A DNA stretch of 28,396 nt, taken from IMG/VR virus record IMGVR_UViG_3300028840_002716, positions 1 to 28,396 of that record; one strand, written 5' to 3'. Below, piece after piece: positions 1 through 13,222 of the stretch. How positions within the stretch are numbered: position 1 is the first letter of the stretch; every line of letters starts with the position of its first letter. A program made the translations under genes and the position numbers. The stretch is from a virus. The notes under the pieces were generated by a model that was not told the origin of the DNA, did no database searches, and saw only the letters and a list, made by a program, of their open reading frames with translations.

Positions 1-305
1 TTGGCGAATTGCAGATCGGCGTCTCGCAGATTGGCGCCTTGCAGGTCGGCGTATTGTAGATTGGCGTCTCGCAGACTGGCGCCTTGCAGATTGGCGAATT
101 GCAGATCGGCGTCTCGCAGATTGGCGAATTGCAGATCGGCGTATTGTAGATTGGCGCCTTGCAGATTGGCGAATTGCAGATCGGCGCCTTGCAGATTGGC
201 GAATTGCAGATTGACGTCTCGCAGATCAAGTCTGATGCCACCTTCTTTGTCTTCCAGCCATAGTTTGTGAAGCTCTAACTTTTTGTCTAGTTCTTTTTGA
301 TTCAT
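1..305 (-). CDS. Pentapeptide-repeat protein, C-terminus beyond window
   Basis: The gene starts at ATG 305-303 behind an AAGGAG ribosome site and is open to the window edge, so only the first 101 codons are visible. After a charged N-terminus (MNQKELDKKLELHKLW...) the protein becomes an unbroken series of A(N/D)L(Q/R)X pentapeptides from about residue 35: ANLQG, ADLQF, ANLRD and so on. Pentapeptide-repeat proteins fold as a right-handed quadrilateral beta-helix, and some members mimic DNA to act on gyrase, but nothing here shows the target. The repeat is also regular in the DNA, in 15-bp units with few variants. The first 34 codons are duplicated in the gene at 2918-3169. Confidence 0.85.
   Translation of the reverse strand, partial: MNQKELDKKLELHKLWLEDKEGGIRLDLRDVNLQFANLQGADLQFANLQGANLQYADLQFANLRDADLQFANLQGASLRDANLQYADLQGANLRDADLQFA
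204..305. repeat. 102-bp repeat, copy 1 (pair with 3068-3169)
   Basis: These 102 bases match 3068-3169 at 99 positions without gaps. The match begins exactly at the start codon and ends where the second gene leaves the pentapeptide pattern. Two of the three differences are synonymous and one changes Ile to Val. Confidence 0.95.
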
Positions 306-596: not shown

Positions 597-881
597 TTAA
601 ATAAAAAGATTTTCTCGAACATAGATTCTAGCAACAGCTTCCTCAAATACCCTATCAAAGGAACAACCAACATACTCACAAGCATCTCTCAAGTCCTTTT
701 CTGTAAAGCAAATAGAATCCCAGAATTCTTTTCTTCTTTGCTCAGAAGAGCGATGAACATCTTGATGGCACTCAGAAGGAGCACTCCAAACTTGTACATC
801 CTCATGGCTTATTGCTTCATCAGCTTCTATAGCAGCTAATCTGCCAATCATCTCACCAAGATTTTCTAGCCTTGTTTCCAT
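597..881 (-). CDS. Hypothetical 94-residue acidic protein
   Basis: Starts at ATG 881 behind a good AAGGGAG site. It is soluble, acidic and probably helical, with three Cys residues and a C-terminal half (DLRDACEYVGCSFDRVFEEAVARIYV) that reads like a small helical domain. The family is not recognised. It is the first gene downstream of the structured RNA region, with no obvious terminator in between, so RNA and gene may be co-transcribed. Confidence 0.65.
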   Translation of the reverse strand: METRLENLGEMIGRLAAIEADEAISHEDVQVWSAPSECHQDVHRSSEQRRKEFWDSICFTEKDLRDACEYVGCSFDRVFEEAVARIYVRENLFI

Positions 882-904: not shown

Positions 905-1645
905 TGCTAGTTCATTCTAGCATTCCTGCCTATTTCCCATTATCAGTAGGGAACTTATAGATCTATTAACAGAGATCTTCCCAGCAAGAAATAAGCAGGA
1001 TGAAAAAACGAACTAAAAAGAACATCATCCCAGGAAGGAGTGGCCCAAGAAACATTCTTGTTGCTATGATAGATAAACTCTAGCAGGGGAGCACCCTAAG
1101 AATCAGATGGCCCAAAAATAACAGTGCTCATATGGCTTGTAGCAAACCTAACACCTTCCTGCCTGCTAGAGGAGTTTTGCAGTTGGATAAAAACCCTTCG
1201 CGCCAAAAAGAAAAAACTCAGATATGAAATAAGGTAGGAAATGACTGGTAGGTAAATTCGTGGAAGTTATGGCAGCGCGAACCAACTACGGAACCGCAAA
1301 ACCCATCTCAAATAGCCTTGGCTGTTTAACCACCAACAGCCGACAAAGGACTTTGATACCTTCAAAGTAAAGTCACGTTCCTCATACGCGGAAGCTCTAC
1401 AAAGTTTATAATCGCCTTTTAGTTCACCCCACTCCGGAGATCAGCTTAGGCTTAACAGCTGGAGTCGATGTCGCTCGTCTCGGGCGTTCAGATTTTCAGC
1501 TCTCTGAAAGGCTAGTCGGAAATCCTCTGAGGCCTGCCCCGTCTTAAGCTTTCCTCCTTTATTTGCTTCGACCGAAATCCCTCCCGGTCTCTCCGGCTTT
1601 GCCCTGCCTGTCTGGGAACCTCCTTTCGAAACTGATTTAAAAATC
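905..1645 (-). ncRNA. Candidate large structured RNA (about 740 nt)
   Basis: No credible gene lies between 882 and 1845. The minus strand here is G+C-richer than its flanks and holds many perfect helices: hairpins at 1494-1509, 1350-1368 (7 bp), 1320-1341 (7 bp) and 1046-1060; a 10-bp long-range helix 1162-1171/1078-1087 with 1089-1094/1124-1129 nested directly inside; and a 12-bp helix (one G-U) 925-936/988-999 enclosing 949-953/978-982 and 959-964/973-978. A promoter lies at 1652-1680. TTGGGCCA occurs twice in single-stranded-looking segments (1041-1048 and 1108-1115) and its GGCC is self-complementary. Size, multibranch architecture and phage setting recall GOLLD or ROOL RNAs; I cannot confirm the class. 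The 3' end is uncertain because no U-tract terminator is visible. A 70-codon reading frame (1441-1653) is judged spurious. Confidence 0.75.
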
Positions 1646-1651
1646 AGTTTC
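1628..1651. repeat. Perfect 24-bp palindrome at the RNA start
   Basis: Arms GAAACTGATTT and AAATCAGTTTC meet around two central bases. It lies just downstream of the -10 element at 1652-1657. If the transcript begins upstream of 1651 it would form an 11-bp 5' hairpin. If transcription begins near 1645, as -10 spacing predicts, it fits an operator overlapping the start site better. Confidence 0.75.
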
Positions 1652-1680
1652 ATTTTACCCTATTTTTTCAGAAAAGTAAA
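1652..1680 (-). promoter_or_regulatory. Promoter for the structured RNA
   Basis: On the minus strand TTTACT (1680-1675) and TAAAAT (1657-1652) are separated by 17 bases, close to sigma-70 -35 and -10 consensus. The sequence before the -10, AAATAGGG, matches the AAATAGGA of the two promoters at 9942-9984 and 13180-13222. Predicted start is near 1645. Confidence 0.7.
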
Positions 1681-1845
1681 GCCTGCTAGGTCTAATGATA
1701 TCAATAGGTTACAAACTTTTTTCGCAATCCTTTTTCAGGAACCAAAAAAGTTAATGATATTAGACACATAGAAAAACCTAGCTATCTTATATATATTAAA
1801 AATAATTTATCAATGAAAGCAATAGGTTATAAACTTTTTTCATTT
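1681..1845. repeat. AT-rich repeat region between primase and RNA promoter
   Basis: A 22-bp direct repeat occurs at 1702-1723 and 1820-1841 with one mismatch; on the minus strand its core is GAAAAAAGTTT(G/A)TAACC. An inverted partial copy, AAAAAAGTTAATGATAT, lies at 1744-1760. Imperfect inverted repeats also pair 1685-1696 with 1759-1782 (GCTAGG/CCTAGC and GTCTAAT/ATTAGAC). The region is strongly AT-rich and contains no gene. It could be an origin-like or regulator-binding region; the sequence does not decide which. Confidence 0.6.
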
Positions 1846-2778
1846 TTACAATCCTAAAATCTCCTCAACCTCATCGTCCGGCAGATCTGACGGATCTCCG
1901 GATTCCAGGAGAATCGGCTCCATCACTTCATAGAACCCAAGCTCAACCAACACCATATAGAGCTGATTAGCTTCTTCATAAGCATCAGCATCCAGCAATA
2001 TCTTTATCCTTCTCCACTCAGCCCGTTCCTTCAAAGTGTATAGCTGACTGGCACAGAAGTTCTTTCCGAATAAAGCCAAACCACAATCACCTATCCTCCA
2101 CTTATCCAACACACCTTCAACCAGCACAATCTGGTCCTGTCTCATGATGTCATCAATACCATAAAGCAATTTGTTGTTAGGCACCTCCACTAGCTCTTTA
2201 GGGCAGTGGATATATCGAACATGAGAAATATCCTCCAGCTCTATCCTCTGCCAACTAACCACCCTACCATCTACAAACACAGGCACAATTAAACTGAAAG
2301 GATACTCACCAGCAAAGCCATCCCAATAGACAGTATACTTCTGTAAGTAGCTCAAAGTAAATCTTCTATACTCCATAAACATCTTTACAATATCAGGCTC
2401 ATTACCTGCTACTATAGGTTGTGCTGTTACTGGTATTATGTCTTCTTGTTTTTTATCTTTCCCTTCCTCCTTTTCTTCTTCTAGTAAATCTATCTGCTGA
2501 AACTCTTTCAGCCTCCTAACAGCAAACATGAAGTCCATCTGCTCTAAGGTTTCTATCAGCCTTATAATGTCGCCAGACTCATTACACATCCAGCAGCTAA
2601 AATAGTTGCCACCAGTATAGTTGATACCACAATGGTTAGAATGGTCTCCACAGTAAGGGCACTGTATATTCACCCATCCTTGAGTAACATTGTTGCCCTC
2701 TAAGCTGTAATCAATCTCTCGCTCTTCCAGATAGGCTACAGTGTCAAAGTTTTCTTTCAGTTCTTGTAAGTTTTCCAT
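1846..2778 (-). CDS. Phage DNA primase (zinc finger plus TOPRIM)
   Basis: A 310-residue protein of the DnaG/T7-type primase superfamily, expected to make RNA primers for the lagging strand alongside the helicase at 10215-11639. Residues 36-66 form a zinc-binding domain (C40-P-Y-C43, H46/H49/C50, C62-W-M-C65). An acidic Lys/Glu-rich linker covers about 95-115. A TOPRIM-like domain follows, with LVEGVLD (E221 as the metal-binding Glu) and LLDADA (D263, D265). No helicase domain is fused. The start at 2778 overlaps the upstream small membrane gene by 35 bases. The AT-rich repeat region begins right after its stop. Confidence 0.88.
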   Translation of the reverse strand: MENLQELKENFDTVAYLEEREIDYSLEGNNVTQGWVNIQCPYCGDHSNHCGINYTGGNYFSCWMCNESGDIIRLIETLEQMDFMFAVRRLKEFQQIDLLEEEKEEGKDKKQEDIIPVTAQPIVAGNEPDIVKMFMEYRRFTLSYLQKYTVYWDGFAGEYPFSLIVPVFVDGRVVSWQRIELEDISHVRYIHCPKELVEVPNNKLLYGIDDIMRQDQIVLVEGVLDKWRIGDCGLALFGKNFCASQLYTLKERAEWRRIKILLDADAYEEANQLYMVLVELGFYEVMEPILLESGDPSDLPDDEVEEILGL

Positions 2779-2917: not shown

Positions 2918-3169
2918 CTATATTTCAAGAGCACGTTCTAAAGACAGATAATCCTCTAAACCATAAACACAGAAAACCTTTTTCTTCTCAGCGCTAGCTA
3001 TGTTACTATCGAAAAATGTATCTACAAATCCCCAAAGGCAAAAATCAGATAAAATAACAATCGCGTTTTGCAGATTGACGTCTCGCAGATCAAGTCTGAC
3101 GCCACCTTCTTTGTCTTCCAACCATAGTTTGTGAAGCTCTAACTTTTTGTCTAGTTCTTTTTGGTTCAT
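2918..3169 (-). CDS. Protein with duplicated pentapeptide-gene N-terminus
   Basis: An 83-residue protein whose first 34 residues are almost identical to the pentapeptide-repeat protein at 1-305 (one Ile/Val change). Immediately after DVNLQ it leaves the repeat pattern and continues as an unrelated 48-residue domain (NAIVILSDFCLWGFVDTFF...). ATG 3169 overlaps the TAA of the nucleotidase gene by one base, and no Shine-Dalgarno sequence is seen, so translation probably depends on coupling. It may be a remnant of a pentapeptide gene fused to another frame, or a genuine two-part protein. Function unknown. Confidence 0.7.
   Translation of the reverse strand: MNQKELDKKLELHKLWLEDKEGGVRLDLRDVNLQNAIVILSDFCLWGFVDTFFDSNIASAEKKKVFCVYGLEDYLSLERALEI
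3068..3169. repeat. 102-bp repeat, copy 2 (pair with 204-305)
   Basis: Gap-free 99/102 match to 204-305. The identity stops at the start codon on one side and inside a codon after DVNLQ on the other, so only the 5' coding part was copied. Confidence 0.95.
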
Positions 3170-3747
3170 TAAACAAACAGCCCAATATTATTAATCAACC
3201 ACTTCAGATTATCAATGTATACGATTCTGTTATTTTTACTTCCTTCATTATACTTTCTCTTAGGCACAAACACATACTTACCATCCTCAGCAAGAATCTC
3301 CGCCGTGCTCAGCCTATCATCCACAAACCAGCTATAGTCCTTCAAGTACAAAAGCTTCCCATTCCCACAAGACTCATAACCGCCATCAGCAAAGCAGAGA
3401 ACATGAGGAACCTTACCACGTACTACATTATTGACGCAAGCGTAGGTGTCAGAAGCAGACCAAACAGGCCTAGCAGTCACTATCCGTATTGGATCTCCGG
3501 TCTTCTCATACAGCTTACATAGTAGTTCCTCAGCATATGGCTCCACCTCATACTCTTGCCACCTACCATAACACTCTCTAATCTGCTCCCACACCTGCTC
3601 CTCTAACAACCCAATATCTTCCCAGCAGTCATAGCTCCTATTCTCTCCGAACTTCACACCATAAGTGTATTCCAGAGCAGACTCCACCAGAAAGAACCAG
3701 TTCACCAATACGCCATCCAAGTCAAATGCCACTCCGCACTTCCCCAT
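3169..3747 (-). CDS. HAD-family 5'(3')-deoxyribonucleotidase-like protein
   Basis: A 192-residue haloacid dehalogenase-fold phosphatase. Motif I is FDLDGVLV (D9 nucleophile, D11 acid/base), motif II is IVTAR (T91), a Lys-containing segment near 131-136 could serve as motif III, and motif IV is FVDDR (D143, D144). The size and DxDGV...VTAR...VDDR pattern fit the NT5C-type deoxyribonucleotidases, which dephosphorylate dNMPs. In a phage this would tune nucleotide pools or recycle host DNA products. It sits in a tight operon, ending one base into the next gene and beginning one base after the preceding one. Confidence 0.8.
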   Translation of the reverse strand: MGKCGVAFDLDGVLVNWFFLVESALEYTYGVKFGENRSYDCWEDIGLLEEQVWEQIRECYGRWQEYEVEPYAEELLCKLYEKTGDPIRIVTARPVWSASDTYACVNNVVRGKVPHVLCFADGGYESCGNGKLLYLKDYSWFVDDRLSTAEILAEDGKYVFVPKRKYNEGSKNNRIVYIDNLKWLINNIGLFV

Positions 3748-4757: not shown

Positions 4758-5076
4758 ATGAGTATAGCTTTACCACTACATCTGTATTCATCTTTTTCTT
4801 CTCTGCCCTTTTAGCCTTAGCAGCTAGTGGTTTTCTACCACACTTCAACAGCTCCCAATTCTTAATCTTGGTATATATGTAAGGTTTATAATAACCATTA
4901 TTGTCCTGCCTACGAGTCATAATGCCTTTCAGATAGGCATCAAACAGAGCAGAAGCAGCATCCTTGTCTGGCACCTTAGTCTCGGTTGATAGTAAACTTG
5001 ACCAAGTAGTATCACCAATCTCCATAACTGTGTTAATATAATTTCTGATCTTCTGTCTTTTATTTTCTTTCTTCAT
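4756..5076 (-). CDS. Hypothetical 106-residue basic protein
   Basis: Starts at ATG 5076 behind AAAGGAGAGGGAG. The protein is basic and mostly helical. Residues 1-60 read like a small helix-turn-helix or winged-helix unit, and about 90-95 hold a Lys-rich cluster (KAKRAEKKK). The last 11 residues (MNTDVVVKLYS) continue naturally in the +1 frame, so the stop at 4756-4758 may not be the end of the ancestral protein. No family is recognised; DNA binding is only a guess from charge. Confidence 0.6.
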   Translation of the reverse strand: MKKENKRQKIRNYINTVMEIGDTTWSSLLSTETKVPDKDAASALFDAYLKGIMTRRQDNNGYYKPYIYTKIKNWELLKCGRKPLAAKAKRAEKKKMNTDVVVKLYS

Positions 5077-11851: not shown

Positions 11852-12082
11852 TTATTGTATCTCATATTTCTCAACAAGCTGGACTGGTTTTGGAAAAACA
11901 ATTCTTCCTTTGATAATCAAAGCTCTCTTCTCCCAATAGTTTGGATCACTTTCTTCTGGAATTTCATAATGAAAAGAAATATCACCATAATAGTTTTCGT
12001 TGATCCTACTTAGTAACTCATCCTTATTCATTTTCTCAATGGACAAATCCCCATCTTCACTGATATGAAAAAGAAAATACAT
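11852..12082 (-). CDS. Hypothetical 76-residue protein
   Basis: I choose ATG 12082, nine bases behind AAAGGAG; an in-frame ATG at 12100 overlaps the initiator gene and lacks its own site. The protein begins MYFLFHISEDGDLSIEKMNKDELLSRINENYYGD and is acidic, with an alternating beta/helix pattern. Small phage proteins with such a start are frequent in replication operons, but no function is known to me. Confidence 0.6.
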   Translation of the reverse strand: MYFLFHISEDGDLSIEKMNKDELLSRINENYYGDISFHYEIPEESDPNYWEKRALIIKGRIVFPKPVQLVEKYEIQ

Positions 12083-12096
12083 CTCATTAACTCCTT

Positions 12097-13008
12097 TCAT
12101 TTAGCTAAAAAATTCTCTGCGACATATCTTGGCCATATTTCGCTCCAAGCATAGTTGCTGCACAAAGCACCAATCCGTATCTTTGTACTACTACCAAACT
12201 CCAAAGCCAGAGCCTGGTAAAAGTGCAAGCAGTAGTCCTTGTAAGTAGCATTCGGTATGGCACCGTTCAACTTTCCACTTTCTATATAAGTACACATCCG
12301 CTTAACAGCAGCATCAAACTGCTGCTCTTGCTTAACAGAAAACCTCCTAACATTCCCATCACAAACTACATGCTTCCTGTAAAGCCGTTTCATTTCATCG
12401 TAGACTTTGTAATAGTTTTCTGGTATCTGTTCCTTACCGCCTCCATTCTCCCTATAAATATGGTTTAGGAATTTAAAGAGATCCATTGACCTTTTCTTTC
12501 TTCTAGTCCTACAAGACTTATTATTATAATCCAAGATAGCACTTTTTACTTGCTCTGGTGTCATCACCTTAAATAGTTTTGTTTCTAGAAAAGTTAAACT
12601 CTTCTCTGACACGCCACTTTGCTCGCTGTGCATAATGGTTCTTGGTTGCTGGTTCCAGTATTTAAATACATCCCTTGCTTCTTCTGTTGCTCTCAGATAA
12701 GAGAACCGTTGTTTTTCTTTTTTAACATTCTTGCTCTCAGTAATATGGAAGTCTCCCGGTTTAGGTCTTCTCTTTCCATTGCTTTTTTGCCAAGGTAAGC
12801 AGATGTCCACTAAAAAGTTAGGCGCGTTTAACTTTTCGTTTTCCTTACTAATATTTTCTTCTTTATTAGTTACTATATTTCTTTCTTTTTTATTATAAGA
12901 GTATATTAGAGGAATGGAAAAGTTAGGTGCGTTTAACTTTTTTTCTGTTTTTCTTATTCTGTTAAGGAGTTCTTTAGGAATATCAACTAGTTCTGAAGAG
13001 GTGGGCAT
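12097..13008 (-). CDS. Replication-initiator / replisome-organizer-like protein
   Basis: A 303-residue basic protein behind AAAGGAG. Residues 1-85 are low-complexity and include KLNAPNF twice, encoded by two of the 24-bp repeats. Residues about 110-200 contain ARDVFKYWNQQ, MTPEQVKSAILDYNN and SMDLFKFLNHIY, the pattern found in phage replisome organizers and lambda O/DnaD-type proteins (...YWN... ysxEEI..AI.NY ...FL). Location upstream of the DnaB-type helicase supports this. Repeats inside the coding sequence would mirror lambda, whose origin iterons lie in the O gene. Assignment rests on pattern and context, not on a database match. Confidence 0.65.
   Translation of the reverse strand: MPTSSELVDIPKELLNRIRKTEKKLNAPNFSIPLIYSYNKKERNIVTNKEENISKENEKLNAPNFLVDICLPWQKSNGKRRPKPGDFHITESKNVKKEKQRFSYLRATEEARDVFKYWNQQPRTIMHSEQSGVSEKSLTFLETKLFKVMTPEQVKSAILDYNNKSCRTRRKKRSMDLFKFLNHIYRENGGGKEQIPENYYKVYDEMKRLYRKHVVCDGNVRRFSVKQEQQFDAAVKRMCTYIESGKLNGAIPNATYKDYCLHFYQALALEFGSSTKIRIGALCSNYAWSEIWPRYVAENFLAK
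12813..12836. repeat. 24-bp palindromic repeat, copy 1
   Basis: Arms AAAAGTTA and TAACTTTT flank GGCGCGTT. It lies inside the initiator-like gene and encodes KLNAPNF. Confidence 0.85.
12918..12941. repeat. 24-bp palindromic repeat, copy 2
   Basis: Same arms AAAAGTTA and TAACTTTT with centre GGTGCGTT, 105 bp from copy 1, which is ten helical turns. Also inside the gene and encoding KLNAPNF. Confidence 0.85.
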
Positions 13009-13027
13009 TAAAATCTCCTTTAAAAAT

Positions 13028-13051
13028 AAAAGTTAGGCGTGTTTAACTTTT
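13028..13051. repeat. 24-bp palindromic repeat, copy 3
   Basis: Arms as in the other copies with centre GGCGTGTT, 110 bp from copy 2. This copy is in the untranslated leader just before the ribosome site at about 13015-13021, so binding here could repress the gene as well as mark an origin. Confidence 0.85.
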
Positions 13052-13062
13052 ACGTTTTCCCC

Positions 13063-13083
13063 TTTTTCTGAAAAACAGAAAAA
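13063..13083. promoter_or_regulatory. AT-rich hairpin in the initiator leader
   Basis: Arms TTTTTCTG and CAGAAAAA with a five-base loop give an 8-bp stem on either strand, between the GC-rich stem and palindromic repeat copy 3. Confidence 0.6.
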
Positions 13084-13108
13084 CCAACCATTAGAATGAA
13101 ATAAAATC

Positions 13109-13161
13109 GAGCGCCCGACAAGAAAAGGAGAAAGGAGGAAACCTCAACTTGCCGGACGCCC
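13109..13161 (-). terminator. GC-rich leader stem, possible attenuator
   Basis: On the minus strand 13161-13148 pairs with 13122-13109 over 14 consecutive bases (three G-U). The 25-base loop holds a small GAGG/CCUC hairpin and pyrimidine tracts. The stem is followed by GATTTTATTT, so it resembles an intrinsic terminator between the promoter and the initiator gene; partial read-through would make it an attenuator. Confidence 0.55.
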
Positions 13162-13179
13162 TTTCCCATATATGGATAC

Positions 13180-13222
13180 TATTATTATATCCTATTTCTT
13201 AAATAAAAGAAAAATTATTTTT
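13180..13222 (-). promoter_or_regulatory. Phage promoter, copy B (initiator operon)
   Basis: 38 of 43 positions equal the promoter at 9942-9984. TATAAT is at 13189-13184, preceded by AAATAGGA, CTTTTATT and an A/T palindrome. It overlaps the end of the preceding gene and would start transcription near 13177, giving a 170-base structured leader before the initiator-like gene. Confidence 0.75.

Follow-up and report, generated by a model that had tools for sequence, protein, structure and literature searches.

A 747-base non-coding interval behind a conserved phage promoter, a candidate operon leader RNA

Known phage RNAs and the content of the interval

Phage operons can begin with leaders that carry processing or attenuation hairpins, as in the RNase III sites of T7-like mRNAs and in lambda-type leaders. 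Among the giant phage-associated RNAs, ROOL is built of covarying stems P1-P19 with a pseudoknot, P10, and assembles into a homo-oligomeric nanocage. We know of no established function for either GOLLD or ROOL. Both often adjoin tRNA islands in phages and prophages, and many GOLLD members are longer than 800 nt (PMC12286853).

We analyzed the linear IMG/VR virus record IMGVR_UViG_3300028840_002716 over its whole length of 28,396 bases (in the following called the window). The record carries a tailed-phage gene set, nearly all of it on the minus strand, with the tail genes to the right and the replication genes (DnaB-like helicase, ResIII helicase, ParB-like, primase) in the middle. No close relative of this phage was found among the GenBank phages, and the 28-kb window contains no tRNA genes. 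Downstream of the DNA primase gene (1846-2778, minus strand; phrog_47, E 6.8e-32) lies an interval of 747 bases (905-1651, minus strand), followed by an ORF of 94 amino acids without a family match (597-881, minus strand). This ORF starts at 881, is preceded by AGAAAAGGGAGAAAAGAAA and has a ribosome-binding site.

The interval had been proposed as a large, ornate non-coding RNA, belonging to GOLLD or ROOL or forming a new class. It resembles ROOL in being phage-encoded, non-coding, several hundred nt long and unremarkable in folding energy, but differs in having neither a model match nor a tRNA island nor a terminator at its end. It shares the size range and the phage location with GOLLD, but gave no covariance-model match at E ≤ 10. 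Phage operon leaders are similar in their promoter, their long untranslated 5′ region and a strong hairpin immediately upstream of the first ribosome-binding site; compared with these, 905-1651 is unusually long.

No Rfam family, including self-splicing introns and other catalogued RNAs, matched anywhere in the window at the gathering score. The models for ROOL (RF03087, gathering 99.1 bits), GOLLD (RF02032, conserved 3′ region; run without a GOLLD positive control) and HEARO (RF02033) found nothing in the interval even at E ≤ 10, and the suggested membership in one of these families is not supported. In a positive control, the ROOL model detected the ROOL RNA of Lactobacillus phage Iacchus (locus L322, MH809529.1 130845-131400) with 144 bits. 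A TnpB/IscB-type gene, expected in the vicinity of a HEARO RNA, was not present among the ORFs scanned against Pfam, a subset of the window ORFs. The best-scoring Rfam match to the interval, with E allowed up to 10, was RAGATH-19 (RF03096) at 873-1005, a weak match to the 3′ stem described below whose 23.7 bits (E 0.33) are far under the gathering score of 85.6; this match and all others, among them miRNA and snoRNA families, were at chance level and were dismissed. In a related phage contig (L021), a type II hammerhead ribozyme was found at 1963-2030 with 47.5 bits, above threshold.

The interval is non-coding. No frame showed a coding signal, the six-frame stop and codon statistics were the same as in shuffled sequences, and 882-1440 holds no sense-strand ORF of at least 60 amino acids. 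A 70-amino-acid ORF at 1441-1653 scored −0.15 per codon, compared to +0.08 to +0.18 in five genes of the phage, and should be absent from the transcript because its start codon overlaps the proposed −10 box. The best sense frame has 7 stops where 14 are expected (P 0.009 for this frame by itself, 0.12 when all six frames are allowed for). Read through, it gave zero matches in Pfam and PHROG, and its codon use is not gene-like; a hidden or broken protein was rejected. The purine content of the minus strand (0.502, compared to a mean of 0.572 elsewhere) is likewise unlike that of genes. The original prediction was thus right in recognizing no credible gene here, codon use and stop content both being without a gene signal, and also in noting a raised G+C content, which is 0.45; windows of 747 bases average 0.411, and 8% of them are equally high.

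Promoter, transcript start and the nearest relative

The promoter that had been assigned to the interval is present as the sigma70-type sequence TTTACT-N17-TAAAAT (1652-1680, minus strand). Protein-guided scans of IMG/VR yielded relatives at 25-49% protein identity, of which L059 (IMGVR_UViG_3300032516_004170), the nearest, has its genes in the same order, with identities of 42% for DnaB, 49% for the ResIII helicase and 38% for the primase. The window has a single copy of the motif TTTACT-N17-TA[AT]AAT and the 12-kb L059 contig has two; other loci, about 3.6 Mb in total, together have nine.

At the same place after its primase gene, L059 keeps the promoter (TTTACT-N17-TAWAAT, collinear at 11887) and roughly the first 50 bases of the transcript. 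The local alignment of promoter and leader reached a score of 44, which was attained in 0 of 500 shuffles. The conserved transcript start (1600-1632, minus strand; GTTTcGAAAgGAGGT..ACAGGC.GGGCA) holds AAAGGAGG, and the collinear sequence shared by both phages reads GTTT-GAAAGGGAGGT..ACAGG..GGGCA. The L059 contig ends about 190 nt after the promoter, and its remaining 160 bases are without codon-like composition. For the interior of the interval, neither about 320 loci (blastn, nhmmer) nor 44 related whole records (blastn) contained a homolog, only short matches at chance level. Direct comparison of the interval with phages and plasmids likewise returned only AT-rich chance matches; those to Lactobacillus phage fall in the AT block, outside that phage's ROOL gene. 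Similarities between AT-rich intergenic regions of the relatives were rejected as composition artefacts, the same query having matched dozens of loci.

The AT-rich block at 1654-1845 (0.255 G+C) contains repeats and inverted repeats. Two copies of a 30-nt repeat (1694-1723 and 1812-1841, minus strand) are 90% identical. The first contains the IHF-consensus-like site TATCAATAGGTTA (1699-1711, plus strand), one of four matches in the window to a consensus that is weak. Behind its primase gene and two small genes, L059 likewise has an AT-rich block, in which both the IHF-like site and a 26-nt box, CTATGTGTCTAATATCATTAACTTTT (1746-1771 in the window, minus strand), recur; in 1000 dinucleotide shuffles, a similarity as high as that between the two blocks came up three times. 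Among about 110 related-phage loci, the IHF-like form WATCAATAGGTTR is found only in L059, at the same place. As at least 120 stretches of viral contigs carry the IHF-like motif as such, it was dismissed as too common to mark the studied RNA. The pattern of the 26-nt box matched L059 and 15 further places, mostly in AT-rich coding-looking sequence, and these 15 were judged to be chance. In the related contig L021, tandem AT-rich repeats (TTATTGATATTATTATATAAAAAATATT) at 77-240 lie upstream of a promoter-like site, a layout resembling that of 1694-1841 in the window.

Folding of the ends and the interior

Compared with dinucleotide shuffles, the minimum free energy of the whole region on the minus strand gave z = −1.16 (2 of 20 shuffles) and, in a second run, −2.3 (2 of 100). 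All of the excess folding comes from two hairpins at the ends. At the transcript start lies a perfect 11+11 palindrome (1628-1651, minus strand; z −5.6), which is unique in the window and may be an operator or a stabilizing 5′-terminal hairpin. At the opposite end, a stem-loop of 40 pairs (907-1016, minus strand; z = −5.3 to −6.1) ends 25 bases before the ATG of ORF 597-881. When the window was scanned in 472 local pieces, the strongest fold was 901-1020 (z −5.6), the next best reaching −3.7. The energy of the 3′ stem is −41.6 kcal/mol on the minus strand, compared to −29.9 on the plus strand. Six of its 40 pairs are G-U on the minus transcript and would become A-C mismatches on the plus strand; the wobble pairs fit the minus transcript only, which favors selection on a minus-strand RNA.

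Whereas both end hairpins exceed chance, the interior is not shown to do so: its 604 bases (1022-1625) fold as shuffled sequence does (z +0.94). The individual helices of the original prediction can be found. The 10-bp helix 1162-1171/1078-1087 is exact (spanning 1078-1171, minus strand) and encloses the 6-bp helix 1089-1094/1124-1129, and the hairpins 1350-1368, 1320-1341, 1494-1509 and 1046-1060 are all present as described; the 12-bp helix 925-936/988-999 exists as well, with one pair being G-U. The elaborate interior architecture read from them is not supported, as the proposed helices also arise in shuffled sequence. The domain around the 10-bp helix (1022-1180) reached z = 0.27, no better than shuffles. 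Perfect helices of at least 10 bp number two in the shuffle count, compared to 0.1 expected (P 0.005), one of them being the 5′ palindrome. A second helix (1151-1161/1031-1041, 10 of 11 pairs; spanning 1031-1161, minus strand) crosses the 10-bp helix, and the two form a possible pseudoknot in this single sequence. Folding energy is no argument against an ornate RNA, because the genuine ROOL of phage Iacchus, included as a control, folds at z only −0.98.

Leader, discrete RNA or DNA element

Judged from the sequence, 905-1651 is very probably transcribed. We suggest, with a probability of about 0.5, that a phage transcription unit begins here with a long untranslated leader RNA of some 745-770 nt. 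The locus combines a promoter, an untranslated interval and a first gene without a preceding terminator. An intrinsic terminator is absent from the stretch between 905 and the start codon at 881, so transcription should continue into ORF 597-881. Given also the ribosome-binding site of this gene, an operon leader explains the interval no worse than a stand-alone RNA does. Transcription would start at about 1645-1650 from the conserved phage-type sigma70 promoter, behind the AT-rich block with its IHF-like sites, and IHF may have a role at this promoter. The transcript would open with the perfect hairpin, possibly protecting its end, or the same palindrome may serve as an operator. It would then cross the structurally ordinary interior and finish in the 40-pair stem-loop before the ribosome-binding site of ORF 597-881, with which it probably forms one transcription unit. 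The 3′ stem could be a processing or insulating element, either an RNase III site or a hairpin controlling translation or transcription, and might in this way separate off the mRNA of the small genes that follow, or regulate it. A known antitermination or processing motif was not identified in 905-1651. Two points count against a leader: 745 nt is very long for one, and a hairpin at each end is also expected of a discrete stable RNA.

A second untranslated leader of the window, with a promoter of its own, precedes the replication genes. It is highly structured (13010-13215, minus strand; z −5.0), and its end, AAAAGTTAGGCGTGTTTAACTTTT-ATTTTT, lies immediately upstream of the ribosome-binding site of ORF 12097-13008. 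In L059, the second promoter (4534) drives a non-coding stretch of about 270 nt, reaching to about 4836-4840 on the plus strand (z −2.8), with a closing stem of 18 pairs followed by TTTTTT. This stretch is located upstream of the replication genes, is without an Rfam family and is a candidate small RNA or attenuator. The promoters of the second leaders in the window and L059 align (9 of 500 shuffles). The terminator-like hairpins of both were read from the sequence, and the consensus terminator scan of the window did not flag the one there. Since a second leader exists in both phages, long structured untranslated leaders downstream of promoters seem to recur in this phage group. For this reason, and because no terminator follows 905, we prefer a leader over a stand-alone giant RNA. 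As a leader behind a conserved promoter, 905-1651 would be unusually long, and together with 13010-13215 it would suggest shared RNA-based control in a little-known phage group.

The two end hairpins could instead be the protected ends of a stand-alone large structured RNA of a new, GOLLD/ROOL-like class. This would be a discrete, stable RNA of about 740 nt, so far undescribed, with the 5′ palindromic hairpin, an interior pseudoknot and the 40-pair 3′ stem, in a phage group that also has a second structured leader RNA. By analogy, it would fold into, and perhaps oligomerize as, an RNA-only particle, and it would join GOLLD and ROOL as a further class of giant phage RNA. The length of 747 nt, the own promoter, the hairpin at both ends, the raised G+C content and the two crossing helices that could form a pseudoknot all agree with such an RNA, and the energy test is not contrary to it given the value for true ROOL. 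We nevertheless consider it unlikely, as there is no Rfam match, no tRNA island and no terminator at the 3′ end, and the interior both folds at chance level and is without a homolog in the about 320 loci or the related whole records.

Less likely still is an element acting at the DNA level, i.e., an origin of replication or a regulatory region next to the primase gene, with the palindrome 1628-1651 as its operator; a transcript, if made, might prime replication. Such an element would suit the neighborhood of the primase and helicase genes and the low G+C content, repeats, inverted repeats and IHF-like site of 1654-1845, but these features lie upstream of 905-1651 and not inside it. Moreover, the G-U pairs in the 3′ stem point to selection at the RNA level, and the conservation in L059 continues through the promoter into the transcript start. 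This conservation likewise argues against the least probable explanation, a spacer left by lost or decayed genes in which the helices are accidental and only the end hairpins functional. The chance-level structure of the interior would be expected of a spacer, and the sense frame low in stops could be seen as a gene remnant, but that frame lacks Pfam and PHROG matches as well as gene-like codon use.

Some further details of the window concern the two leaders and their surroundings. The leader at 13010-13215 contains a 14-pair hairpin with the anti-Shine-Dalgarno-like loop GUUUCCUCCUUUCUCC; the loop sequence UUUCCUCCUUU is complementary over 11 pairs to AAAGGAGGAAA at 1547-1557 (minus strand), possibly by chance. 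A direct repeat of 108 nt (199-306 and 3063-3170, 95% identical) flanks the segment with the primase gene and the leader. It represents the duplicated start of a pentapeptide-repeat gene, fused to another short frame (ORF 2918-3169). At the contig edge, a gene for a pentapeptide-repeat protein (3-302, minus strand) contains a 15-nt tandem repeat that is nearly perfect.
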